NCBI RefSeq assembly: GCF_016806835.2
Contig: NZ_CP086114.1
Location: 62,001 to 126,000 of the forward strand
Length of the DNA stretch: 64,000 bases
Direction of reading: 5' to 3'
Origin: Skermanella rosea
Lineage (GTDB): Bacteria; Pseudomonadota; Alphaproteobacteria; Azospirillales; Azospirillaceae
Shown here: positions 15,279 to 56,124 of the stretch, in pieces
How positions within the stretch are numbered: the first letter of the stretch is position 1
Layout of the letters: each line of letters starts with the position of its first letter
Made by a program: the position numbers and the translations under genes
The notes under the pieces: model-generated
The model's database searches: none
Told to the model about the DNA's origin: nothing
Seen by the model: the letters and a program-made list of their open reading frames with translations, nothing else

Positions 15279-16451
15279 TCAGCCCGCCGGCCGGAACACG
15301 ATCGCCACCGGCGTGATCGACCGGGTCACGGTCCCGGTGGGCGTCAGCCGCCCGGACTCCCGGTCGATCCGGAACTGCACGATGTCGTCGCCCTTCTGGT
15401 TGGCGACATAGAGCCAGGTTCCGCCCGGATCGATGGCGAAGTTGCGCGGGAAGGCGATGCCGGCCGTGGTATGCCCGATCGGCGACAACAGCCCGCTGGA
15501 AGCGTCGATCCCGAAGGACGCGATGCTGTCGTGCCCCCGGTTGGAGGCGTAGAGGAACCTGCCGTCGGGATGGACCGCGATCTCGGCGGTGCTCTGGGGA
15601 CCGGCGTAGCCGGCCGGTTCGGTCCGCACGGTCTGGAGCCCGCGGCCGAGCTCGCCCGTGGCCGGGTCGTATTCCAGCGCGGTGATGGTCGCGTTCAGCT
15701 CGTTCAGGACATACAGGATGCGCCCGTCCCGGTGGAACGCCACGTGCCTCGGGCCGGCTCCGGGCGCCATGGAAGCCTCGCTCACCAGGAACAGCCTGCC
15801 GCCCTCCAGCCGCAGGATCTGCACCTTGTCGATGCCCAGGTCGGCCGTGGCGATGTACCGGCCGGCCGGATCGAAGGTGACCGCGTGCGGGTGCGGCGCC
15901 TCCTGGCGCTCCGGGTTGGGGCCGCTGCCCTTGTTCATGAACTCGCCGCTCGCGGGGCCGAGCCTGCCGTCCGCCTCGATCGGCAGGGCGACGAAGTTGC
16001 CGCCCATGTAGTTGGCGACCACCAGATGCCGCCCAGACGGATCGACCGCCAGGTGCGCCGGGATATGGCCCACCACCGACTGCCGGTTCAGCAGGGAGAT
16101 GGTCCCGGTCCCTGGGCTGATGGCATAGGCCTCCGCCGAACCCGCCTTGCCGCCCTGATAGTCGTCTATCTCGTTGACCACGTAGAGGAAACTCCCCGAC
16201 GGGTGAAGCGCCACGAAGGACGGGTTGGCGCTCGGCACCTGCTGGATCAGCGTGAAGGCGCCGGTATCCGGATCGACCCGGAACACCGAGAGGCCGACGG
16301 GATTGTCGCTGCCCCCGCCGGGCGGATCCTTGGTGTAGGAGCCGACATAAGCGTATCGTGCCATGGTCCTGCCTGAAGCGAGTTCGGGGAACGCCAGGAT
16401 GGCCGAAGCACCCGCTGCGGCCACCATGAACTGGCGGCGGTCGATCTGCAT
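15279..16451 (-). CDS. Lactonase family (YbhE/6-phosphogluconolactonase-type) beta-propeller protein, exported
   Basis: 390 residues. A twin-arginine-type leader (IDRRQFMVAAAGASAILAF) precedes a seven-bladed propeller with repeated blade motifs such as PSFVALHPSGSFLYVVNE, PAHLAVDPSGRHLVVANY, PRHVAFHRDGRILYVLNE and PRNFAIDPGGTWLYVANQ. The PHPHAVTFDP segment is typical of the lactonase family. It probably hydrolyses an aldonolactone. It lies 23 bp after the Gfo/Idh dehydrogenase, so dehydrogenase and lactonase may act in series on a sugar. Export differs from the cytosolic pentose-phosphate enzyme and suggests a periplasmic role. Confidence 0.85.
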   Translation of the reverse strand: MQIDRRQFMVAAAGASAILAFPELASGRTMARYAYVGSYTKDPPGGGSDNPVGLSVFRVDPDTGAFTLIQQVPSANPSFVALHPSGSFLYVVNEIDDYQGGKAGSAEAYAISPGTGTISLLNRQSVVGHIPAHLAVDPSGRHLVVANYMGGNFVALPIEADGRLGPASGEFMNKGSGPNPERQEAPHPHAVTFDPAGRYIATADLGIDKVQILRLEGGRLFLVSEASMAPGAGPRHVAFHRDGRILYVLNELNATITALEYDPATGELGRGLQTVRTEPAGYAGPQSTAEIAVHPDGRFLYASNRGHDSIASFGIDASSGLLSPIGHTTAGIAFPRNFAIDPGGTWLYVANQKGDDIVQFRIDRESGRLTPTGTVTRSITPVAIVFRPAG

Positions 16452-16474
16452 GGTCGTTCCTCCCGTTTTCTTGT

Positions 16475-17461
16475 CTACTTGGAACCCGCCTTGAACAACG
16501 CCTCGATGACGCGGAGGTTCGCCACGGCATCCTCCAGCGGATAGTCCGGCGCCAGCCCGCCCCTCAGCAGCCGGGCGAAGTCGGCCGCCTGGAGGGCGTA
16601 CTGATCCACCGCGTCCATGTCCTCCGCCACGGCCGACGCGTCGGCGTGCCGGCTTCCGTCGTCGACCAGGATCCGGCAGGGCCGGTCCGGCGGCGCGTTG
16701 AACGGGATCAGCACCTCGATCCGCCCCCGGCTGCCCAGGCAATGGACCCGCTGGTAGGGCACCATCCGGGTCGAGACGGTGAAGCTCGCCTGCCCTCCCC
16801 CGGGAAACGCCATGAGGGCGGAGGTCAGGACGTCGATCCCCAGGTCCGGATCGCGCTCGACCAGGGCCGCGACCCGCTCCGGCTCGGCGCCGAACAGCCA
16901 GCGCGCCAGCATGACGGGATAGCAGCCGATATCGTACAGCGCGCCGCCGCCCTGCTCCGCGCTGTTGCGGATGTTGGCCGGATCGGCATTGTGGTAGCTG
17001 AAGGTGCAGGTCATCGCCAGGAGCGTCCCGATCCGCCCCTCCCGGATCAGCTCGCGGACCCGCAGCCACTGGGGATGGTGGCGGACCATGAAGGCTTCCT
17101 GGATCAGCCGGCCGGTGCGGTCGCGCGCGGCGACCAGCGTCTCGGCCTCCGCTGCGGTCAGCGCCAGCGGCTTCTCGCACAGCACATGCTTGCCGGCATC
17201 GGCGGCCCTGATCGCCCAGGGCACGTGCTGGTCGTTGGGCAGCGGGATATAGACCGCCTCCACGGCATCGTCTGCCAGCAGCGCCTCGTAGCCGCCGTAA
17301 GCCTTCGGAATGCCCAGCCGCGCGGCACAGGCCTGCGCGCGGCCGGCATCGCGGGACGCGATGGCGACCACCTCGGCGGTATCGGTTCGGCGGAAACCGG
17401 GTATCACCTTCTCGACGGCGATCTTCGCGGTGCCCAGGACACCCCAGCGCACGGGTTCCAT
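16475..17461 (-). CDS. Gfo/Idh/MocA family oxidoreductase
   Basis: 328 residues. The N-terminal Rossmann fold starts VRWGVLGTAKIAVEKVIPG and runs through VVAIASRDAGRAQACAARLGIPKAYGGYEALL, with the signature CEKPLALTAAEAETL (about residues 92-106). The C-terminal dimerisation and substrate domain follows. These enzymes oxidise sugars or polyols with NAD(P). The ATG at 17461 follows GGGAGGG and was preferred over 17551, which lies inside a large hairpin. Neighbouring lactonase and sugar importer suggest an aldose dehydrogenase role. Confidence 0.87.
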   Translation of the reverse strand: MEPVRWGVLGTAKIAVEKVIPGFRRTDTAEVVAIASRDAGRAQACAARLGIPKAYGGYEALLADDAVEAVYIPLPNDQHVPWAIRAADAGKHVLCEKPLALTAAEAETLVAARDRTGRLIQEAFMVRHHPQWLRVRELIREGRIGTLLAMTCTFSYHNADPANIRNSAEQGGGALYDIGCYPVMLARWLFGAEPERVAALVERDPDLGIDVLTSALMAFPGGGQASFTVSTRMVPYQRVHCLGSRGRIEVLIPFNAPPDRPCRILVDDGSRHADASAVAEDMDAVDQYALQAADFARLLRGGLAPDYPLEDAVANLRVIEALFKAGSK

Positions 17462-17494
17462 GACGGCCTTCCCTCCCTGAGTTTTTCGTTCTTT

Positions 17495-17558
17495 GCCACA
17501 GATGACGGCGATGGGCTCAGATGAATGCTTATCTTTATCCATCGCCGTCATCTGTGGC
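17495..17558. repeat. Large perfect inverted repeat in the sugar operon
   Basis: GCCACAGATGACGGCGATGG (17495-17514) is perfectly repeated in inverted order at 17539-17558, with a 24-nt loop; after one mismatch the stem extends by 5 more base pairs. It lies between the ATPase gene and the dehydrogenase gene, both on the minus strand. It may attenuate or protect the upstream mRNA, or be an interspersed palindromic element. Confidence 0.75.
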
Positions 17559-17588
17559 CAAGAAACAGAAGTCGAACACTCCGAAGCT

Positions 17589-18674
17589 TCAGCCCAGCCG
17601 CCGGCCGTCCTCCGGATCGAACAGCGACACCCGCCCCCCGTCCAGCATCACCGGCAGCGGCGCGTTGCGCTCGATCCGCTGGTTCGGGGCCATGCGGGCG
17701 GTGACCTCCCCAGCCCCGGTGGCGAGCAGAACATACATGTCGGGGCCGGTCGGCTCGGCCATGATCGGGCGCGCCTCGAACGATCCCCCGCCGCCGCCCT
17801 CGGCGATGCGGATATGCTCCGGCCGGAAACCCAGCGTGATCGGCCTGCCCTCCCCCGACCCCGAGGGCGGCGCCAGCCCCGGCAGCGGGATCGTGGCGCC
17901 GCCGCAGACCAGCCCGACATGGTCGCCCGCCGGCCCCAGCCTCCCCTCCAGGAAGTTCATGGTCGGCGCCCCCACGAAGGACGCGACGAACCGGTTGGCC
18001 GGCCGGTCGTAGACCTCCTCCGGGCTGTCGCACTGCTGGATCCGCCCCTGGTCCATCACGACGATCCGGGTCGCCATGGTCATCGCCTCGATCTGGTCGT
18101 GGGTGACATAGACCATGGTCCGCCCCACCCGCTCGTGCAGCCGCTTCAGCTCGATCCGCATGTCGGCGCGCAGCTTGGCGTCCAGGTTGCTGAGCGGCTC
18201 GTCGAACAGGAAGACCTTGGGCTGCCGCACCAGCGCGCGGCCGATCGCGACCCGCTGCTGCTGGCCGCCGGACAGCTCGGACGGGCGCCGGTCCAGCAGG
18301 TGGCCGATCCGCAGGAGCTGGGCGACCTCCGCCACCTTGCGCTCCACCTCGGCCTTCGGCGTCCCCCGCATGCGCAGGCCGAAGCCGATGTTCCGGCGCA
18401 CCGACATGGTCGGGTAGAGCGCGTAGGACTGGAACACCATCGCGATGTCCCGCTCGTCCGGCTCGAGTTTCGTCACGTCCCGTCCGCCGATCAGGATGCG
18501 CCCGCCGGTGGTCGGCTCCAGCCCCGCGATCATGTTCAGCAGGGTGGACTTGCCGCAGCCCGACGGCCCCAGCAGGACCAGGAACTCGCCGTGCTCCACC
18601 TCCAGGTCCAGGCCGTCGATGATGGTCAGGTGGCCATAGCTCTTGCGCACGTCTTCGAGGGTCACGCCGTTCAT
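17589..18674 (-). CDS. ABC sugar importer ATP-binding protein (UgpC/MsmX type)
   Basis: 361 residues. Walker A GPSGCGKST (36-44), signature LSGGQQQR (134-141) and Walker B FLFDEP (155-160) are intact, followed by a C-terminal OB-fold (TOBE) regulatory part with GFRPEHIRIAEG. This is the CUT1 carbohydrate importer ATPase type. The ATG at 18674 has a GAGGA site; an upstream ATG at 18689 would overlap the permease stop by 4 bp. It is the last transport gene of the operon. Confidence 0.93.
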   Translation of the reverse strand: MNGVTLEDVRKSYGHLTIIDGLDLEVEHGEFLVLLGPSGCGKSTLLNMIAGLEPTTGGRILIGGRDVTKLEPDERDIAMVFQSYALYPTMSVRRNIGFGLRMRGTPKAEVERKVAEVAQLLRIGHLLDRRPSELSGGQQQRVAIGRALVRQPKVFLFDEPLSNLDAKLRADMRIELKRLHERVGRTMVYVTHDQIEAMTMATRIVVMDQGRIQQCDSPEEVYDRPANRFVASFVGAPTMNFLEGRLGPAGDHVGLVCGGATIPLPGLAPPSGSGEGRPITLGFRPEHIRIAEGGGGGSFEARPIMAEPTGPDMYVLLATGAGEVTARMAPNQRIERNAPLPVMLDGGRVSLFDPEDGRRLG

Positions 18675-18685
18675 GGGTTGGGTCC

Positions 18686-19525
18686 TCATCCTTTGACGGC
18701 GCCGGCGGCGATGCCGCGCACGAACAGGCGCCCGGAAAACAGGTAGACCAGGACGGTCGGAAGGGCCGCGAGCATCGTCGCCGCCATGTTGACGTTGTAT
18801 TCCTGCTCGCCGAACTGCGATCCGACGAGGTTGTTGAGCGCCACCGTCACCGGCTGGCTGCCGCGCCCGCTGAAAGTCAGCCCCAGCAGGAAGTCGTTCC
18901 AGATGTAGGTGAACTGGAGGATCACCGCGACCGCGAACACCGGCAGCGAGAGCGGCAGCATGATGTGCCAGAAGATCGCCAGGAACCCGGCCCCGTCGAT
19001 CCGCGCCGCCTTCATCAGGTCCGCCGGCACCGACTGGAAGAAGTTGCGGAACAGCAGGGTCACGAAGGCCAGCCCCCAGACCACGTGGACCAGCACCAGC
19101 CCCGGCACGGTGCCGAACAGCCCCAGTTCCCGCACCAGCACGATCATCGGGTAGAGCGTCACCTGCGGCGGGATGAACAGCCCGATCAGGACCGCCGCGA
19201 ACAGCAGGTTGGCGAAGCGCAGCTTCCACAGGCTGAGCGCGTAGCCCGTCAGCGAGCCCAGGCCGACCGACAGGAACAGCGCCGGGAACACGATGACGAA
19301 GGAATTGACGAACTGCCCCGACAGCCCGCCGCTGCCGCCGTCGCGCCCGGCCCAGGCCTTGCCCCACGCCTCCAGCGTCGGGGCCTGCGGCAGGGCGAAC
19401 AGGCTGCCGCCGCGGATCTCGTCCATCGGCTTCAGCGAGGTGGAGAACATGATCAGCAGGGGCGCCATCATGGCGAGCGCCGCCGTGCCGAGCAGCAGAT
19501 ACAGGACGACCCGCTGGTAGCGCAT
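18686..19525 (-). CDS. ABC sugar importer permease (MalG type)
   Basis: 279 residues with six predicted membrane helices. The conserved EAA loop reads PADLMKAARIDGAGFLAIFWHIMLPLS, the site that contacts the ATPase. Its ATG overlaps the TAA stop of the preceding permease by one base (TAATG). Together with the MalF-type permease it forms the membrane channel of the importer. Confidence 0.93.
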   Translation of the reverse strand: MRYQRVVLYLLLGTAALAMMAPLLIMFSTSLKPMDEIRGGSLFALPQAPTLEAWGKAWAGRDGGSGGLSGQFVNSFVIVFPALFLSVGLGSLTGYALSLWKLRFANLLFAAVLIGLFIPPQVTLYPMIVLVRELGLFGTVPGLVLVHVVWGLAFVTLLFRNFFQSVPADLMKAARIDGAGFLAIFWHIMLPLSLPVFAVAVILQFTYIWNDFLLGLTFSGRGSQPVTVALNNLVGSQFGEQEYNVNMAATMLAALPTVLVYLFSGRLFVRGIAAGAVKG

Positions 19526-20472
19526 TACCGTGCCCCCCGGCTCTTGTGGATTTCCCGGTACAGGTAGGGGCCGATCACCGCGACCACGGTGCACAGCATC
19601 ATGAAGGCGCCGGCGGCGCCCAGGCCCAGCTCCTGCCGGTTCAGGATATGGTCGACCACGAACCGCGCCGGCAGGTCCGACGCGAAGCCCGGCCCGCCGC
19701 CGGTCAGCGCGACGACCAGGTCGAACGACTTCATCACCAGCGCCGACAGCAGCACGAAGACGGTGAAGAACACGGGCCGCAGCATCGGGGTGACGATGTC
19801 CGTATAGACCCGCCAGGTCGGGATGCCGTCGATCCGCGCGGCCTTCCAGACGTTGGGATCGACGCCCCGAAGCCCCGCCAGGAACAGCGCCATGCACAGC
19901 CCGACCTGCTGCCAGATCCCGGCGATGGCCAGGGTATAGATCGCCCGGTCCGGCTGGACGATCCAGTTGAAGACGAACCCTTCCCAGCCCAGGTCCCGCA
20001 CCGCGTCCTGGATGCCGAACACCGGGTTCAGCATCCATTGCCAGATCAGGCCGGTCACGATGAACGACATGGACAGCGGCAGCATGAACACCGTCCGGAA
20101 GAACCCCTCGGCCCGGACGCCCCGGTCGATCATGATCGCCAGCGCATAGCCCGCGACCGTGCAGCCCGCGATGAACAGCGTGCCGTGGATCGCCAGGTTC
20201 TCCATGGCGGTCCACCAGCGGGCGCTGGCGAACAGCCGGCGGTACTGGTCGAACCCGACGAAATCATAGACCGGCAGCAGGCGCGACCGGGTCAGCGAGA
20301 TCACGAAGGTCCAGACGATGAAGGCGTAGAAGCAGACGATCGTGATGACCGCCGCCGGGATAAGGGCGATCCGCGCCGCCGTCAGGGGCGCCAGCCGCCA
20401 TCGGGGCCGGACGGCCGGCGCGCCGCCGTCGGCCATCAGGATCGCCGGCCGGCTCTGTTCTGCATGGGACAT
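19525..20472 (-). CDS. ABC sugar importer permease (MalF type)
   Basis: 315 residues, with a cytoplasmic N-terminus of about 30 residues and six membrane helices. The EAA loop is VDPNVWKAARIDGIPTWRVYTDIVTPML. It is followed by the second permease with a 1-bp overlap and preceded by the binding protein. A GGAG site precedes the ATG. Confidence 0.93.
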   Translation of the reverse strand: MSHAEQSRPAILMADGGAPAVRPRWRLAPLTAARIALIPAAVITIVCFYAFIVWTFVISLTRSRLLPVYDFVGFDQYRRLFASARWWTAMENLAIHGTLFIAGCTVAGYALAIMIDRGVRAEGFFRTVFMLPLSMSFIVTGLIWQWMLNPVFGIQDAVRDLGWEGFVFNWIVQPDRAIYTLAIAGIWQQVGLCMALFLAGLRGVDPNVWKAARIDGIPTWRVYTDIVTPMLRPVFFTVFVLLSALVMKSFDLVVALTGGGPGFASDLPARFVVDHILNRQELGLGAAGAFMMLCTVVAVIGPYLYREIHKSRGAR

Positions 20473-20538
20473 GGGAATGCTCCATCGCCGGCCCGGAGGA
20501 TCACCGGGCCGGTCATGCGATCGGAAGGCCGGGGCGCC

Positions 20539-21795
20539 CTAGCGGGCGTCCCCGATGGTCTGCACGAACAGGCTGCGCCCCTGTTCCGGCGTCATGGAGG
20601 GACTGTTCCAGAACTGCGATATGGCGTCGTCGATCGCCCCGGAGACGGCGCTGGAGACGCCGAACAGCCCGGTGCTGACCAGATGGGTGGCGGGGTCCTT
20701 GATGGTGGCGATCGCCAGCTTGGCGCAGCTGTCGAAGCCGGGATCGGTCACGTCCGTGCGGACCGGGATCGACCCCTTGCGCCGGTTGAAGGCGATCTGG
20801 ACCTGCGGGTCCATGATGACCTCGGCCATCAGCTTCTGGGCCGCCTTGACCTGCGGGTCCGACGTGGCGCCGAACGAGAAGGCGTCGACCGCCATGATGT
20901 AGGCCGCGTCCTTCGCCGGGGCCAGCATGCAGCCGACCGCCGTCCCCGGCTCGATCCCGGCCGCCACCAGCTCGCCCTTGGCCCAGTCGCCGGTGAACTG
21001 GAAGGCCGCGTCGCCGCGCATCAGCATGGCGGTGGCCTCGTTCCAGCGGCGGCCCGGGCTGCCCTCGTCCACGAAGCCGCGCAGCGCCGCGAAGGTGCTG
21101 AACGCCTCCAGCATCGCGTCGGATTCCATCGCCGCCTCGTCCAGGTCGCCATAGACCTTGGCGTAATGCTCGCGCCCGCCGACGCCGAGCAGCACGGTGT
21201 TGAACAGCACCCGCTCCTGCCAGGGCTGGCCGCCCAGGGCGATCGGGGTCACGCCCGCCGCCTTCAGCCTCCCGGCGGCCTCCAGGAATTCCGGCCAGGT
21301 CTTGGGCACGGCCACCCCGGCCTTCTCCAGCACGGCGGTGTTGTAGAACATCCAGTTCTCGCCGTGGATGTTCAGGGGTGCGGCGATGTACTTGCCGTCC
21401 TCCTTGGCGATCCGGGCGATCAGGGGCGGCAGGACCGCGTCCCAGCCGCCGGCCGCCGCGACCTCCTGGACGTCGCCGACGAAGCCCTGCGCCGCCAGCT
21501 CCTTGAGCTGTTCGCCGATCGAGAACTGGAAGATCGCCGGGGCGTCGTTGCCGATCATGCGGTTGACCGCGGCGGCCCGGGCGTTGGCGCCGCCGGCGAT
21601 CGGGGTGTCGTTCCAGGTCCCGCCGCGCGCGGTGAAGGCGGAGCGGACCTCGCCCAGGGCGGCGGACTCGCCCCCCGACGTCCACCAGTGCAGCACCTCG
21701 GCCGTCTGGGCCGTGGCCGCCGGCGCCGCGAGCCCGGTCGCCACAGCGACCGCCAGCCCCGTCCCCAACCCTGTCATCAGCATGGAAACACGCAT
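20539..21795 (-). CDS. ABC sugar-binding protein (family 1)
   Basis: 418 residues. A signal peptide ends near AATAQ (residue 30), followed by TAEVLHWWTSGGESAALGEVRSAF, the opening of glucose/mannose-type family 1 binding proteins, and later GDAAFQFTGDWAKGEL. It should collect a mono- or oligosaccharide in the periplasm. It is the first gene of the importer operon and is divergent from the GH1 beta-glucosidase, so beta-glucosides such as cellobiose, or the released glucose, are reasonable substrates. Confidence 0.92.
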   Translation of the reverse strand: MRVSMLMTGLGTGLAVAVATGLAAPAATAQTAEVLHWWTSGGESAALGEVRSAFTARGGTWNDTPIAGGANARAAAVNRMIGNDAPAIFQFSIGEQLKELAAQGFVGDVQEVAAAGGWDAVLPPLIARIAKEDGKYIAAPLNIHGENWMFYNTAVLEKAGVAVPKTWPEFLEAAGRLKAAGVTPIALGGQPWQERVLFNTVLLGVGGREHYAKVYGDLDEAAMESDAMLEAFSTFAALRGFVDEGSPGRRWNEATAMLMRGDAAFQFTGDWAKGELVAAGIEPGTAVGCMLAPAKDAAYIMAVDAFSFGATSDPQVKAAQKLMAEVIMDPQVQIAFNRRKGSIPVRTDVTDPGFDSCAKLAIATIKDPATHLVSTGLFGVSSAVSGAIDDAISQFWNSPSMTPEQGRSLFVQTIGDAR

Positions 21796-21829
21796 CCGGA
21801 CCCTCCCTGAATCGATCCGCCGTTTTGGA

Positions 21830-21843
21830 TCGTAACGTTTCGA
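21830..21843. promoter_or_regulatory. LacI-type operator, copy 1
   Basis: TCGTAACGTTTCGA is a near-perfect palindrome 35 bp before the binding-protein start. It matches copy 2 (21929-21942) at 13 of 14 bases. The two copies are 99 bp apart, about nine to ten helical turns, which would permit looping by a tetrameric LacI protein. Confidence 0.7.
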
Positions 21844-21928
21844 TTTTCGGCAAGTATGACCTTGAGCCGATGATTGTCAATGCAGAAAACGCCCTTGTCA
21901 GCTCTCTTACCCGGCGTTACCATCGACA

Positions 21929-21942
21929 TCGTAACGTTACGA
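21929..21942. promoter_or_regulatory. LacI-type operator, copy 2
   Basis: TCGTAACGTTACGA is a perfect 14-bp palindrome, 47 bp before the beta-glucosidase start, with the CG centre usual for LacI/GalR operators. The regulator encoded downstream at 23372 is the obvious candidate to bind it and copy 1, controlling both divergent transcripts. Confidence 0.75.
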
Positions 21943-21988
21943 ATTTCGAACGCGCCGCAGCGGCGTGCCAGACCGGGAGGGTTCCGCG

Positions 21989-23329
21989 ATGCTACGTTTC
22001 CCCGAGGGGTTCGTGTGGGGAGTGTCCACGTCCAGCTACCAGATCGAGGGGGGAGCGCCGGACGACGGGCGCGGCCGGAGCATCTGGGATACCTACTGCG
22101 CCACGCCGGGGAAGGTCGCGAACGGCGACGACGGCTCGGTCGCCTGCGACCATTATCACCGCTACCCCGAGGACCTGGACCTTCTGCGGACGCTGGGCGC
22201 CTCGGTCTACCGCTTCTCGATCATGTGGCCCCGCGTGATGCCGGAAGGCACCGGCCGGCTGAACGAGAAGGGCCTCGACTTCTACGACCGCGTGGTCGAC
22301 GGCCTGCTGGAGCGCGGCCTGCGCGCCTGGCCCTGCCTGTACCACTGGGACCTGCCCCAGGCGCTCCAGGACCGGGGCGGCTGGACCAACCGCGACAGCG
22401 CCTCCTGGTTCGCCGACTATGCCGAGGTCATGGCCCGGCGGCTGGGCGACCGGGTCGAGAACTGGGTGACCTTCAACGAGCCCAGCGTCTCCGCCTGGAT
22501 CGGCCACGAGGAGGGCCGGCACGCGCCGGGCCTGACCGACCCGCGCGCCGCCGTGCGGGCCGCGCACCACATCAACCTGGCCCACGGCCGGGCGGTCGCG
22601 ACGCTGCGCGACCTGACGCCCCGGGCCGGCGTCGGCTTCGTCCTGCCGATGCACAAGGCCCGCCCCCTGCCCCGGTTCGCCGAACGCGACGCCCATCTGG
22701 CCGATTTGTTCGAGGACAAGTGGAACGGCGTGTTCCTGGACCCGGTCTATTTCGGCCGCTACCCCGCCTCGCTGGCCGACCGCTTCGCCGAGCACGTCGC
22801 CCCCGGCGACCTGGAGGAGATCAGCCGCCCGGTCGATTTCCTCGGCGTCAACCACTACTTCCCCAGCTATGTGGAGGCGGCGTCCGGCGAGGCCTGGCCG
22901 TTCCGCCATGCCGAGCCCCCGTTCTATTTCCGCCGGACGGAGATGAACTGGGCGATCGACGGGAGCGCCTTCTACGAGGCGCTGATGATCCTGAAGCACC
23001 GCTACCGCAACCCGCCGGTCTACGTGACCGAGAACGGCGGCGCCTTCCTCGACTGCATGCAGGCCGACGGCCGGGTGGACGACCAGGACCGGATCGCCTA
23101 CTACAAGGACTATCTCGCCAACCTGCACCGGGCCATGGCCGAGGGGGCCGACATCCGGGGCTTCATGCCCTGGTCCCTGCTCGACAATTTCGAATGGGCG
23201 CGCGGCTACGACAAGCGGTTCGGTCTGGTCCACGTCGATTACCGCACGCAGAAGCGGACGCCCAAGGCGTCCTTCGACTTCATGCGCGCCGTCATCGCCG
23301 GCAACGCTTTGCCCGGGGGCCAGTTCTGA
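21989..23329 (+). CDS. GH1 family beta-glucosidase
   Basis: 446 residues, typical GH1 length. FPEGFVWGVSTSSYQIEG at the start is the family N-terminal signature. Glu164 in TFNEPS is the expected acid/base and Glu348 in YVTENGG the expected nucleophile. There is no signal peptide, so it acts in the cytoplasm on imported beta-glucosides. The ATG at 21989 follows GGGAGGG; an earlier ATG at 21965 lacks such a site. The LacI gene follows closely. Confidence 0.95.
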   Translation: MLRFPEGFVWGVSTSSYQIEGGAPDDGRGRSIWDTYCATPGKVANGDDGSVACDHYHRYPEDLDLLRTLGASVYRFSIMWPRVMPEGTGRLNEKGLDFYDRVVDGLLERGLRAWPCLYHWDLPQALQDRGGWTNRDSASWFADYAEVMARRLGDRVENWVTFNEPSVSAWIGHEEGRHAPGLTDPRAAVRAAHHINLAHGRAVATLRDLTPRAGVGFVLPMHKARPLPRFAERDAHLADLFEDKWNGVFLDPVYFGRYPASLADRFAEHVAPGDLEEISRPVDFLGVNHYFPSYVEAASGEAWPFRHAEPPFYFRRTEMNWAIDGSAFYEALMILKHRYRNPPVYVTENGGAFLDCMQADGRVDDQDRIAYYKDYLANLHRAMAEGADIRGFMPWSLLDNFEWARGYDKRFGLVHVDYRTQKRTPKASFDFMRAVIAGNALPGGQF

Positions 23330-52507: not shown

Positions 52508-53599
52508 ATGGCTCGTCACACAAATCCTGGATTGGCCTTGCAGCCGGTCGCGCAGTTCAGTCTCTTCGAGATCGAACGCGATCAGGATCCGTGCACCAAT
52601 CAGGTCGAGCTTTACGATCTGGCGCCCCGCTGCGTCTTCTACACGAGCGAGAAGGAGCGTGTCGGCCCCTACCTGAAGACGGTCGAGCGCAATTTCACCC
52701 ATGCGGGGAAGGCCTACAAGCTGGTGCTGTATCCGGCCCGCGTCCGCCGGGCCGACGGCACCGAGTTGGATGTCTATCCCAGCGAGCGCGAACAGATCGT
52801 GGAGGAGGTCCTGCGCCGCCTGGCGTCGGAAGCCAACCGGATCTGGCTGGAAGAGGACGAACGGCAGCGCGACCGGGTGATGATGTCCTTCACCGTCAAC
52901 GAGATCCGGACCGAGTTGAAGAGGGTCGGGCATTCTTTGAACGGCGACCAGGTCCGCGAGGCGCTGGAGGTACTTCACCGCTCGGTGATCGAGATCCGCC
53001 AGTGCGGCGTCGGCAAGGACCCGCTTCTGTCGTCGTCGGCCTTTCCCGTGATGATGATCTCCGATGCCCGGAATTCCGGGGCGAAGACCTACCTGCAGTT
53101 CAATCCGCTGGTGGCCCAGGCGATCCGGTCGCTGGAGTGGCGCCGCGCCAGCTACGAGACGCTGATGCGGATCAGCGACCCGGTCGCGCGCTGGCTCTAC
53201 AAGCGCCTTGCCCTCCGGATGAGGGCGACGGACACCGAAATCTCCATGCGTGCCACCGCCATCGCCCAGGACAGCGGGTTGGTCAACCGTTCGCGGACCC
53301 GCGACACGCTGAAGCGTATCACCGAAGCGATGGAATCGCTTGTGGACGCCAACGTCCTGGACGGTTACGCCTGTTCCGTCGAGAAGGAAGGACGACGACA
53401 GGTCGACATCATCTACGACCTGCGCCTGTCCAGCTCGATGCGTGACGAACTGCAGAGGGCGGACCGAGCCGCCGTCGAGGCGAAGCGCACCATGAAGCGG
53501 ATCGCCGGGACGGAGCAGCCCGACCGCTTCCTGCGGGTGGACGGGGACCGGCTTCAGAAGATCCGCCAGGACGAGCGGACCGCCCTGAACGCGAGTTGA
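52508..53599 (+). CDS. repA: Replication initiator protein, RepA-like
   Basis: 363 residues. The middle part resembles RepA-type plasmid initiators with two winged-helix domains: residues about 40-180 (FYTSEKERVGPYLKTVERNF, SFTVNEIRTELKRVGHSL, VREALEVLHRSVIEIR) and 195-310 (LQFNPLVAQAIRSLEWRRAS, DPVARWLYKRLALRMR, SRTRDTLKRITEAMESL). The GGAGAGGG site precedes the ATG, and the last iteron lies 70 bp before it, so initiator binding may also repress the gene. It defines the replicon as a plasmid or chromid. Confidence 0.9.
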   Translation: MARHTNPGLALQPVAQFSLFEIERDQDPCTNQVELYDLAPRCVFYTSEKERVGPYLKTVERNFTHAGKAYKLVLYPARVRRADGTELDVYPSEREQIVEEVLRRLASEANRIWLEEDERQRDRVMMSFTVNEIRTELKRVGHSLNGDQVREALEVLHRSVIEIRQCGVGKDPLLSSSAFPVMMISDARNSGAKTYLQFNPLVAQAIRSLEWRRASYETLMRISDPVARWLYKRLALRMRATDTEISMRATAIAQDSGLVNRSRTRDTLKRITEAMESLVDANVLDGYACSVEKEGRRQVDIIYDLRLSSSMRDELQRADRAAVEAKRTMKRIAGTEQPDRFLRVDGDRLQKIRQDERTALNAS

Positions 53600-53812
53600 T
53601 CCCGCTTCCCCCGGCCCGGCCGGCATCGTCGTGCCGGCGGATTGGGGAAAGAAGGCGCTCTACGGCAACGGTGGTTGCAGCGGGACCGGTGCTCGGCCCG
53701 AGAGGTTCGGCTCGTGTGGCCGGGCATGGCCGGCTTGATGTTTCCTATCAGGATGACGGAAACACGAATCGGAGCTCGTGGTTAATCATTTCATAATAAA
53801 TTATGCATAGGT

Positions 53813-53887
53813 TCGTGGCTGCGCATTGTCTTAGTGCGTTTCCTCCCTAAACTCGGCCCCGCGCGATATCCGCAGCGGGGCCTTTTT
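53813..53887 (+). ncRNA. Predicted small RNA of the mmgR/suhB (alpha-r8) type
   Basis: An approximately 75-nt transcript is predicted. It contains TTTCCTCCCT (53839-53848), the ten-base single-stranded motif I recall as conserved in the alphaproteobacterial MmgR/suhB family, within TGCGTTTCCTCCCTAAACT. A stem GGCCCCGC/GCGGGGCC (53855-53862 with 53875-53882) and TTTTT end it as a rho-independent terminator. TATGCA (53802-53807) could be the -10 element. The CCTCC core could pair with ribosome-binding sites. Precise ends are estimated. It lies 214 bp after repA. Confidence 0.7.
53855..53887 (+). terminator. Rho-independent terminator of the predicted sRNA
   Basis: Perfect 8-bp GC stem (53855-53862 and 53875-53882), 12-nt loop and a run of five T. 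It ends the predicted small RNA and stops plus-strand transcription coming from repA. Confidence 0.85.
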
Positions 53888-54009
53888 ATGTCCGCATTTA
53901 TAAATGATAGAATGTGGAATCTGAAATATGCCGACTGCCATGAACTATTATTCAATAATTACATGGGATAATTAATGTCAACGGGCTGAAAAATCCGGGC
54001 TAGTGATTG

Positions 54010-56073
54010 ATGAGGTTTCCAGTGAATACCCTAACCACAACTAATCCGAAGGGCATAACCAGTTTGTTTGCCGACAGGCGGACCGGGACGAAGATCTATA
54101 CAGGTTTCGGTGCCCTGCTTCTACTTCTGAGCGGGCTTGGCGGAGCGTTCTGGCTCTCGGCCGAGGACGGATTGAATAACCTGAATGCCTATACCAAACA
54201 GTCGGAGATCGCCGTCGGCATTTCCCAGGCGGAAACGAAACTCATCGAGGCACGATTAGCGGTCAGGCGGTTCCTGGTCAGCGGTGCCGAAGCTGATGTC
54301 GCCGACTTCAATGAAAAGTGGGCTGGAGTCAACGATGTCCTGTCTCCGGCCAAAGCTCGGATGACGCGGCAGGAAAACATCAGGACCGTCGACGATATCT
54401 TCGCGTTGAAGGCTACCTATGCCGACTCTTTCAAGGAGGTGGTCGAGAAGAGCGCGCGGCGGGATGCGCTCGAGGCGGAGATCCTCAACGATGTCGGCGT
54501 GAAGCTGCGCAAGCTGCTGACCGAGATGCGCAACGCGGAGATCGCCAGCGGGAACAGCGTGGTGATCGGCGATCTGGCGCAGGCCGGCGAGAGCTTCCTG
54601 CTGGCCCGGGTCGTCGCAGCCCGGTTCCTGGGCCTCAAGAACAAGGACGAGGTCCCGCGCGTCATCAAGGAACTCGACAGCGTGGAGTCGCGCCTCGCCG
54701 ATCTGGCTGCGCATCTGATCGCTCCGGATCAGGGCCAGCGGCTGAGGGATGTCAGGCAGTTGCTGTCGCGCTACGGACAGGGATTCGAGGAACTGGCATC
54801 GGTGACCCTCGACATCGAAAGCCGGGTCGCGGGTCCCATGGCCGAAACCACTGCACTGATCCAGCAGAAGGCCCGCGATATCATGGCGATCGCGACCGAC
54901 CTGCAGGCCGAGACCCAGACGGAAGCGGTCGATGACGCTTCGGACGCCCGGACGACGGCGGTCGCGCTCTGCATCGCCGCCATAGTGCTCGGTGTGGCGT
55001 TCGCTTGGCTGATCGCACGCAGCATCGCCGTTCCGGTCGTCTCGATGACCGACGCCATGCGCAAACTTGCGGGTGGCGACATCGACGCCGTGATCCCGGC
55101 GGTCGGGCGGAAGGATGAGATCGGCCAGATGGCCGGCACGGTGCAGGTCTTCAAGGACAACATGATCCGCACCCGCGAGATGGAGCGGGAGGCTCGCGAG
55201 GCGGAGGTCCGCGCGGCGGCGGAGCGCAAGGCCGCGATGCTGAAGCTGGCCGACGGCTTCGAGGCCAGCGTCAAGGGCATCGTCGAGACGGTGGCCTCGG
55301 CCGCGACCGAGATGCAGAGCACCGCGTCGGTCATGACCCACACCGCGGACACCACCAGCCAGCAGGCGACCGCCGTGGCCGCCGCCTCCGAGCAGGCCTC
55401 GGCCAATGTCCAGACCGTGGCGGCGGCGACCGAGGAGCTGTCCTCCTCCATCACCGAGATCGGCCGGCAGATCAGCAACTCCAGCCAGGTCGCCGGCCAG
55501 GCGGTGACCGAGGCCGGCCGGACCAGCGAGACGATGAGGGTGCTGGTGCAGGCTGCCGAGCAGATCGGCCAGGTGGTGGAGCTGATCAACACGATCGCCG
55601 GGCAGACCAACCTGCTGGCGCTGAACGCCACGATCGAGGCGGCGCGCGCCGGCGAGGCGGGCAAGGGCTTCGCGGTGGTGGCGTCGGAGGTCAAGGCGCT
55701 GGCGACCCAGACCGCCCGCGCGACCGAGGAGATCCAAGCCAAGGTCAAGGAGATCCAGGGAGCGACCGGCGACGCCCAGGCGGCGATCGACGGGATCGGC
55801 CGGATCATCGGCCAGATGAACGAGATCACCACCACCATCGCCGCCGCGATCGAGGAGCAGGGTGCCGCCACGCGCGACATCTCCTCCAACGTCAGCCAGG
55901 CCGCGCGGGGCACCGAGGAGGTCTCCGCCAACATCACGGGCGTGACCCAGGCCGCCGGCGAGACCGGGGCCGCGGCATCCCAGGTGCTGGGCGCTTCCGA
56001 AGGCTTGGCGCGCGAGGCGGAAAAGCTGCGTGGCGAAGTCGCGAGCTTCATCGCCACCGTCCGGGCCGCCTGA
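54010..56073 (+). CDS. Methyl-accepting chemotaxis protein
   Basis: 687 residues. Helix 1 (about 27-50), a helical periplasmic sensor of about 260 residues with EAVAIS-like four-helix-bundle character (TKLIEARLAVRRFLVSG, EIASGNSVVIGDL), helix 2 (about 317-337), HAMP (338-392) and a signalling domain with the tip VVELINTIAGQTNLLALNATIEAARAGEAGKGF in pieces. No C-terminal methylation-enzyme tether. ATG at 54010; a GTG at 54022 has a better GAGG site. Ligand unknown. No che genes are nearby. Confidence 0.93.
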   Translation: MRFPVNTLTTTNPKGITSLFADRRTGTKIYTGFGALLLLLSGLGGAFWLSAEDGLNNLNAYTKQSEIAVGISQAETKLIEARLAVRRFLVSGAEADVADFNEKWAGVNDVLSPAKARMTRQENIRTVDDIFALKATYADSFKEVVEKSARRDALEAEILNDVGVKLRKLLTEMRNAEIASGNSVVIGDLAQAGESFLLARVVAARFLGLKNKDEVPRVIKELDSVESRLADLAAHLIAPDQGQRLRDVRQLLSRYGQGFEELASVTLDIESRVAGPMAETTALIQQKARDIMAIATDLQAETQTEAVDDASDARTTAVALCIAAIVLGVAFAWLIARSIAVPVVSMTDAMRKLAGGDIDAVIPAVGRKDEIGQMAGTVQVFKDNMIRTREMEREAREAEVRAAAERKAAMLKLADGFEASVKGIVETVASAATEMQSTASVMTHTADTTSQQATAVAAASEQASANVQTVAAATEELSSSITEIGRQISNSSQVAGQAVTEAGRTSETMRVLVQAAEQIGQVVELINTIAGQTNLLALNATIEAARAGEAGKGFAVVASEVKALATQTARATEEIQAKVKEIQGATGDAQAAIDGIGRIIGQMNEITTTIAAAIEEQGAATRDISSNVSQAARGTEEVSANITGVTQAAGETGAAASQVLGASEGLAREAEKLRGEVASFIATVRAA

Positions 56074-56086
56074 CCGGCACCCGGAA

Positions 56087-56124
56087 GGAACAGCCCCGCG
56101 CGCCAGCCGCCGCGGGGCTGTTCC
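56087..56124. terminator. Hairpin after the chemoreceptor gene
   Basis: GGAACAGCCCCGCG (56087-56100) pairs perfectly with 56111-56124 across a 10-nt loop, 14 bp after the chemoreceptor stop. A strong stem without a T run. Confidence 0.7.

Follow-up and report, generated by a model that had tools for sequence, protein, structure and literature searches.

A locus beside the replication gene of a secondary replicon of Skermanella rosea is, by its sequence, an alpha-r8 (MmgR/suhB) sRNA gene, and quite likely a working one, whose product would act in trans in an anti-Shine-Dalgarno mode, probably with help from Hfq. The motif, the predicted structure, the homology, the clade, the upstream box and the gene content are observations made directly on the DNA. 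The sRNA itself is ordinary, being one more copy of a family that was reported in 2005; the part that looks new, as far as the sequences go, is a split among the promoters of the Skermanella alpha-r8 copies.

The alpha-r8 locus and its family

The window, by which we mean the whole 64-kb stretch of DNA analysed here, is part of the 329-kb contig C4, one of seven contigs that make up a 7.76-Mb genome. C4 is syntenic with plasmid pSM-3 of Skermanella mucosa, which among the named plasmids of the collection searched is the most closely related to it (87% over 98% of 10 kb). The upstream neighbour of the sRNA is a replication-initiator-like gene (repA; 52508-53599, plus strand), assigned by tblastn to plasmid records. 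Its product has matches in 1298 such records; among the 20 matches listed, two are annotated as "plasmid replication protein", both from Azospirillum at ca. 37% identity, and searches of Pfam and NCBIfam gave no match. The downstream neighbour (54010-56073, plus strand) encodes a methyl-accepting chemotaxis protein with PF00015, PF00672 and PF16591, the start of which is placed later than 54010 in the S. mucosa record. The end of repA and the chemoreceptor ATG are separated by ca. 410 bp, in agreement with the gene-free gap of about 400 bp described in an earlier, sequence-only reading of this DNA. The single-copy alpha-r8 locus of most species is reported to adjoin an N-formylglutamate amidohydrolase gene (PMC12559287), a hallmark that is absent at the window locus. 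The nearest FGase domain (C4:108214-108870) lies 6.9 kb away with other genes between, a distance that we rejected as a signal because rough arithmetic, given five FGase domains and 14 sRNA matches, puts it at ca. 10% by chance.

Within the gap, the exact 10-mer TTTCCTCCCT occupies 53839-53848 of the plus strand and is the sole exact copy on both strands of the window, where a first-order Markov estimate predicts 0.064. As the same reading had stated, the motif is followed by a Rho-independent terminator (53855-53887, plus strand), which in the predicted fold is strong and consists of an 11-pair stem (53855-53882) and TTTTT to 53887; this stem pattern is common to five copies of the genome, those of clade B (see below). 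On the 5' side lies a predicted hairpin (53821-53839, plus strand). The fold of 53813-53887 has an energy of -34.1 kcal/mol, compared with a shuffle mean of -22.2 (sd 2.85, n=200; z -4.2). Comparison of promoters suggests a 5' end at 53815-53819, and hence a predicted sRNA of ca. 69-73 nt (53815-53887, plus strand); the start at 53813 given earlier was a guess. If the 5' end is at 53819, the predicted fold pairs no base of the 10-mer but its first U; with 53813 or 53815, the 10-mer gains two further predicted pairs. Of the features of family membership, the exact 10-mer is present, and a weak 5' hairpin, an otherwise mostly unpaired 10-mer and a 3' Rho-independent terminator are seen in predicted folds. 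A paired base within the last eight nucleotides of the stretch ending at the seed anchor is found in 128 of 129 alpha-r8 loci, the window copy included, with eight of the 129 anchored slightly upstream of the true seed.

Covariance models point to the same family, the Rfam model just under its cut-off. A scan of the whole window at the Rfam gathering threshold reported no family; an E-value scan of 53500-54100 gave a match to RF00519 (suhB/MmgR) at 53814-53896, with 39.5 bits, an E-value of 1.2e-6 (3.6e-6 on the scale of the whole genome) and no non-standard pairs marked. The covariance match anticipated by the sequence-only reading therefore exists, but its score is 1.5 bits under the curated cut-off of 41. 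In the Rfam scan, which keeps only the best family of a clan, suhB is the best family at the locus; an opposite-strand match to IMES-4 (20.5 bits, cut-off 48) was rejected. A second, clade-B model (R1) was built from 12 copies, taken from five Skermanella genomes and having the terminator CCCCGCGCG...CGCNGCGGGG in common; neither the window copy nor its S. mucosa counterpart was among them. This model matches 53811-53892 with 68.1 bits, compared with 34-41 bits for the seven copies of group A in this genome, of which six carry a PhaR core. Its selectivity is imperfect in that locus L020, which belongs to another clade, scores 44.6 bits. By sequence, the proposal of an mmgR/suhB-family sRNA that has a terminator of its own and sits on a secondary replicon holds.

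Paralogues and clade B

A search for further copies, as the sequence-only reading had suggested, was productive: a whole-genome scan at E <= 0.001 gave 14 matches to RF00519, of which nine exceed the cut-off, and the genome thus has many paralogues. Matches were likewise found in 59 of 59 genomes drawn from the family Azospirillaceae (above the cut-off in 58). A control search of 14 known genomes gave matches in two, Caulobacter vibrioides and Thermus composti, one of them above the cut-off; the match in T. composti, far outside the alphaproteobacteria, was unexpected. Multi-copy alpha-r8 RNAs have been published (PMC1273637, PMC12559287), with the 2005 work reporting multi-copy suhB RNAs that have their own putative promoter and terminator (PMC1273637). 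Because of this, and of the 14 matches, a plasmid copy is ordinary.

To place the window copy we used a tree of 57 Skermanella rows, comprising 62 RF00519 matches plus L148 and L059, minus L043, L044, L021 and L071-L074. The window copy falls in clade B, a group of 16 rows that includes the S. mucosa copy and has a support of 93/95; the tree is based on few columns, its bootstrap had not converged, and some branches are long, that of L077 in particular. Lagares et al. 2016 is cited in PMC12559287 for a phylogeny of the alpha-r8 family. Five clade-B copies are present in this genome, on C1 (two), C2, C4 and C6. The earlier suggestion of a replicon-specific duplicate is thus right only in part, the window copy being one of five clade-B paralogues distributed over four contigs.

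The clade-B terminator pattern occurs at six places in the genome, five being the clade-B sRNAs. The sixth (56094-56117 of the window) lies just 3' of the chemoreceptor gene and falls within a long palindrome that lacks a T-tract; in S. mucosa, too, a similar stem follows the chemoreceptor gene (L059 8674-8705). On C1, TTATGGTTAAC occurs at four other sites, none of them followed by an alpha-r8 body; the best clade-model match there is 7.4 bits with an E-value of 0.15.

Several variants of these RNAs were seen. In a clade-B subgroup from four Skermanella genomes (L022, L075, L076, L148), the seed GTTCTTCCTTG replaces TTTCCTCCCT while the box and terminator are kept, a change that possibly alters the target range. 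A further alpha-r8 group, with GATTCCTCCCTAAC (L021, L071-L074), is present once per genome in all five Skermanella genomes, and in genus g11 (L132, L133, L135-L138, L142) a second CU-rich stretch, GTTCTTCCCT, precedes a similar RNA; neither the GATTCCTCCCTAAC group nor the g11 loci have a PhaR core or a CtrA-like site in the stretch scanned. Locus L065 (G002:C2:660869-660928), ca. 3 kb from the clade-B copy L061, is an alpha-r8 copy with a shortened terminator stem, possibly a pseudogene.

Two classes of promoter

Promoters were compared by searching the 60-nt stretch at -85 to -25 relative to the seed for the PhaR core YGCRNYGCR and for CtrA-like sites, defined as TTAA-N7-TTAA with at most one mismatch or as GGTTAA/TTAACC; the latter follow the CtrA preference of Caulobacter, which may not be that of Skermanella. 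The PhaR site has precedents: the mmgR promoter of Sinorhizobium meliloti is reported to carry a PhaR/AniA site and to be bound and shifted by PhaR in EMSA (PMC12542648), and the Bradyrhizobium PhaR consensus is given as TGCRNYGCASMA (PMC6201568). The core is absent from the 300 nt before phaR itself in this genome, and the PhaR motif therefore lacks that support here.

Of the 62 matches to RF00519 in the five Skermanella genomes, the PhaR type, exemplified by the copy at C1:2757759, accounts for 33 (one also with GGTTAA); 19 have CtrA-like sites only, nine have neither and one (L043) is unanchored, with L044 wrongly anchored. Across the family, 130 loci divide into 76 with a PhaR core and 33 with a CtrA-like site (one locus being in both sets), and 22 with neither; the last figure includes L044, anchored at the wrong place, and L132, L133, L135-L139 and L142, for which the anchor is a CU-rich stretch immediately 5' of the true seed. 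In 4697 random 60-mers of the same loci, the background was 3.8% for the PhaR core and 0.6% each for the full box and the half-box. The CtrA-like loci come from Skermanella and four other genera (g5, g7, g11, g12), with the box mostly 49-59 nt before the seed.

The 130 loci are L009-L172 minus 15 duplicates or non-sRNA loci, 13 without a central seed (L021, L043, L071-L074, L116, L123, L130, L131, L141, L144, L147) and six that repeat an identical stretch. Outside Skermanella, 20 loci were picked from the top of the RF00519 list, and the clade-model list supplied 30 automatic loci (five of them from Skermanella) plus 36 further places. Since these were selections from lists, only the Skermanella tally of 62 is a full count, and since paralogues inherit promoters, all of these figures count loci rather than independent events. 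A broader scan for TTAA-N7-TTAR before GCGTTTCCTCCCT, with a gap of 18-48 allowed, in contigs of 84,980 species gave 11 matches. Five are Rhodospirillales alpha-r8 loci (gaps of 35-37) that were already in the locus set, and the scan thus adds no independent cases; the other six (three Saprospirales/Saprospiraceae, one Pedobacter, one Neisseria and one archaeon) score at most 13.1 bits with the clade model or do not match it.

Membership of the CtrA-like class also bears on annotation. Of its 19 Skermanella matches, 17 score below the RF00519 gathering cut-off, which therefore runs through the Skermanella paralogues, and annotation at that cut-off misses most of the class.

The window copy has GGTTAATCATTTCATAA at 53780-53796, within which TTAA-N7-ATAA begins 57 nt 5' of the seed and differs from the CtrA consensus at one position. 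The putative CtrA-binding box as a whole (53778-53796, plus strand), found by the motif scan, comprises GTGGTTAA (53778-53785) overlapping TTAATCATTTCATAA (53782-53796), and comparison with clade-B promoters by eye points to a possible, weak -10 element, CATAGG, at 53806-53811 on the plus strand. If transcription starts near 53815-53819, the box covers the -35 region, and a CtrA site in that position is reported for most CtrA-activated promoters of Caulobacter (PMC11264516). The clade-B promoters of Skermanella have a TTAA-N7-TTAA-like box at the usual CtrA position, in place of the PhaR operator of MmgR-like copies; for this reason the most likely input is CtrA, that is, motility or cell-cycle state, rather than PHB. 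The genome encodes PhaR, Hfq and an orthologue of CtrA, which is 71% identical to the query; the 350 nt before the ctrA gene contain two CtrA-like sites. In every order studied, Rhodospirillales among them, CtrA is reported to control flagellar genes, and viable ctrA mutants are reported for Rhodospirillum centenum and Magnetospirillum (PMC8116508). The chemoreceptor next door fits a CtrA input but proves nothing.

On balance, we lean slightly towards CtrA control of the window sRNA. A serious competitor, which we rate somewhat below an even chance, is that the box serves another regulator of AT-rich sites or belongs to the -35 region of a sigma-70 promoter: many clade-B copies have a degenerate second half-site, and the consensus applied is that of Caulobacter. 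Against this, TTAA-N7-TTAA or TTAA-N7-TTAG stands at about the same place in the relatives L066, L101, L102, L110 and L122, and the ctrA promoter carries similar sites. In the open-access PMC literature, judged by titles and the beginnings of abstracts, we found no CtrA-linked alpha-r8 class, and the open-access PMC text gave no paper on a suhB sRNA of Azospirillum.

Conservation, mode of action and meaning

Comparison with the syntenic S. mucosa copy separates the RNA from its surroundings. The body (53819-53882) is 84% identical (54/64), compared with 58-59% in the flanks (25/43 for 53776-53818 and 70/119 for 53891-54009). This is the pattern expected under selection on the RNA, and the window sRNA looks constrained. 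The S. mucosa copy keeps GGTTAA, the seed and the stem, and its T-tract is broken, with 4/8 positions identical; it scores 21.4 bits with RF00519 and 53.2 bits with the clade-B model. The broken T-tract and low scores mean that the locus may be dispensable, and the alpha-r8 RNA may be failing in the sister plasmid. A decaying duplicate, that is, a relic of another alpha-r8 gene carried onto the plasmid and no longer used, would account for that T-tract, for the imperfect box and weak -10 of the window copy, and for the redundancy suggested by five clade-B copies in one genome. We nevertheless consider it unlikely, given that this genome retains the seed, the hairpin, the terminator and the box and that the body is better conserved than the flanks.

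The working sRNA that we favour can be compared with several known RNAs. MmgR of S. meliloti has the same UUUCCUCCCU seed, preceding hairpin and terminator, and its 77 nt (PMC7143759) are similar to the length predicted here; it has three predicted stem-loops (PMC7143759), whereas the window copy has two, and the mmgR promoter has a PhaR/AniA site where the window copy has a CtrA-like box. An ordinary MmgR orthologue, responsive to PHB or carbon, repressed by PhaR and acting on phasins, would agree with the common seed and architecture, with the presence of phaR and with the PhaR core in 33 of the 62 Skermanella matches. Strictly taken, such an orthologue has a PhaR/AniA operator in its promoter, and the window copy has no PhaR core in -85 to -25 and groups with a clade that is not of the PhaR type. 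We therefore reject the PHB link drawn by the sequence-only reading for this copy and judge MmgR orthology improbable.

Another parallel is with SisA-D, the alpha-R8 siblings of Caulobacter crescentus, which, as in Skermanella, are several paralogues with one common seed (PMC12559287). According to the same source, SisA represses mRNAs by pairing its 10-mer upstream of the start codon, and the sponge CrfA, aided by Hfq, titrates it; the study detected no motif conserved upstream of the four siblings, in contrast to the conserved promoter classes of Skermanella. AbcR1/2 (alpha-r15) also have CU-rich anti-Shine-Dalgarno motifs, bind Hfq and show partial homology to the suhB model, but differ in having 114-120 nt, three stem-loops and two such motifs (PMC7143759). 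A SisA-like mode of action is likely for the window sRNA. A transcript of ca. 70 nt would be made from its own promoter and end at the terminator at 53887, and by analogy with SisA (PMC12559287) its mostly unpaired UUUCCUCCCU (53839-53848, plus strand) would serve as an anti-Shine-Dalgarno seed, pairing with GGAGG-type ribosome sites of several mRNAs and lowering their translation, with Hfq probably assisting.

Pairings inside the window do not point to particular targets. The strongest seed pairings include those with the start of a Gfo/Idh/MocA oxidoreductase gene at 17461 (-22.4 kcal/mol) and with the starts of CoA-transferase, sugar-binding protein and GH1 beta-glucosidase genes. Since 0.125% of random 28-mers equal the best pairing and 760 starts were candidates, this is the level of chance, and no target is claimed. 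Carbohydrate-use genes at 15279-23329 (Gfo/Idh/MocA oxidoreductase, lactonase, sugar-binding protein, GH1 beta-glucosidase) have start regions that rank among the best pairings, within chance.

Plasmid antisense copy-control RNAs are transcribed antisense to the rep leader. That the sRNA is a copy-number or replication-control RNA for repA, as had also been proposed, is very improbable, even though it adjoins repA both here and on pSM-3 and the repA start region contains GGAGAGGG: the sRNA gene follows repA in the same orientation and is not antisense to the repA leader; of 4000 random 28-mers, 22.5% pair with the repA start region at least as well as its seed does (-11.7 kcal/mol); and four more clade-B copies sit on C1 (two), C2 and C6 although the sole repA relative found in this genome is the C4 gene.

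Work in Caulobacter is reported to have left open whether the siblings act redundantly or independently (PMC12559287). In Skermanella, same-seed paralogues are apparently sorted by promoter class, and this offers a testable case of why sibling sRNAs are kept; the Rfam cut-off hides most of one alpha-r8 sub-clade in this genus. Our broader proposal, which is tentative and to which we give a little less than an even chance, is that the Azospirillaceae have a two-input alpha-r8 family, with one set of copies wired to PhaR and another, the window copy included, wired to CtrA, all acting through one shared seed. If so, CtrA-wired copies would be carried on several secondary replicons, and storage and developmental state would either compete for a single set of mRNAs or have additive effects on it.
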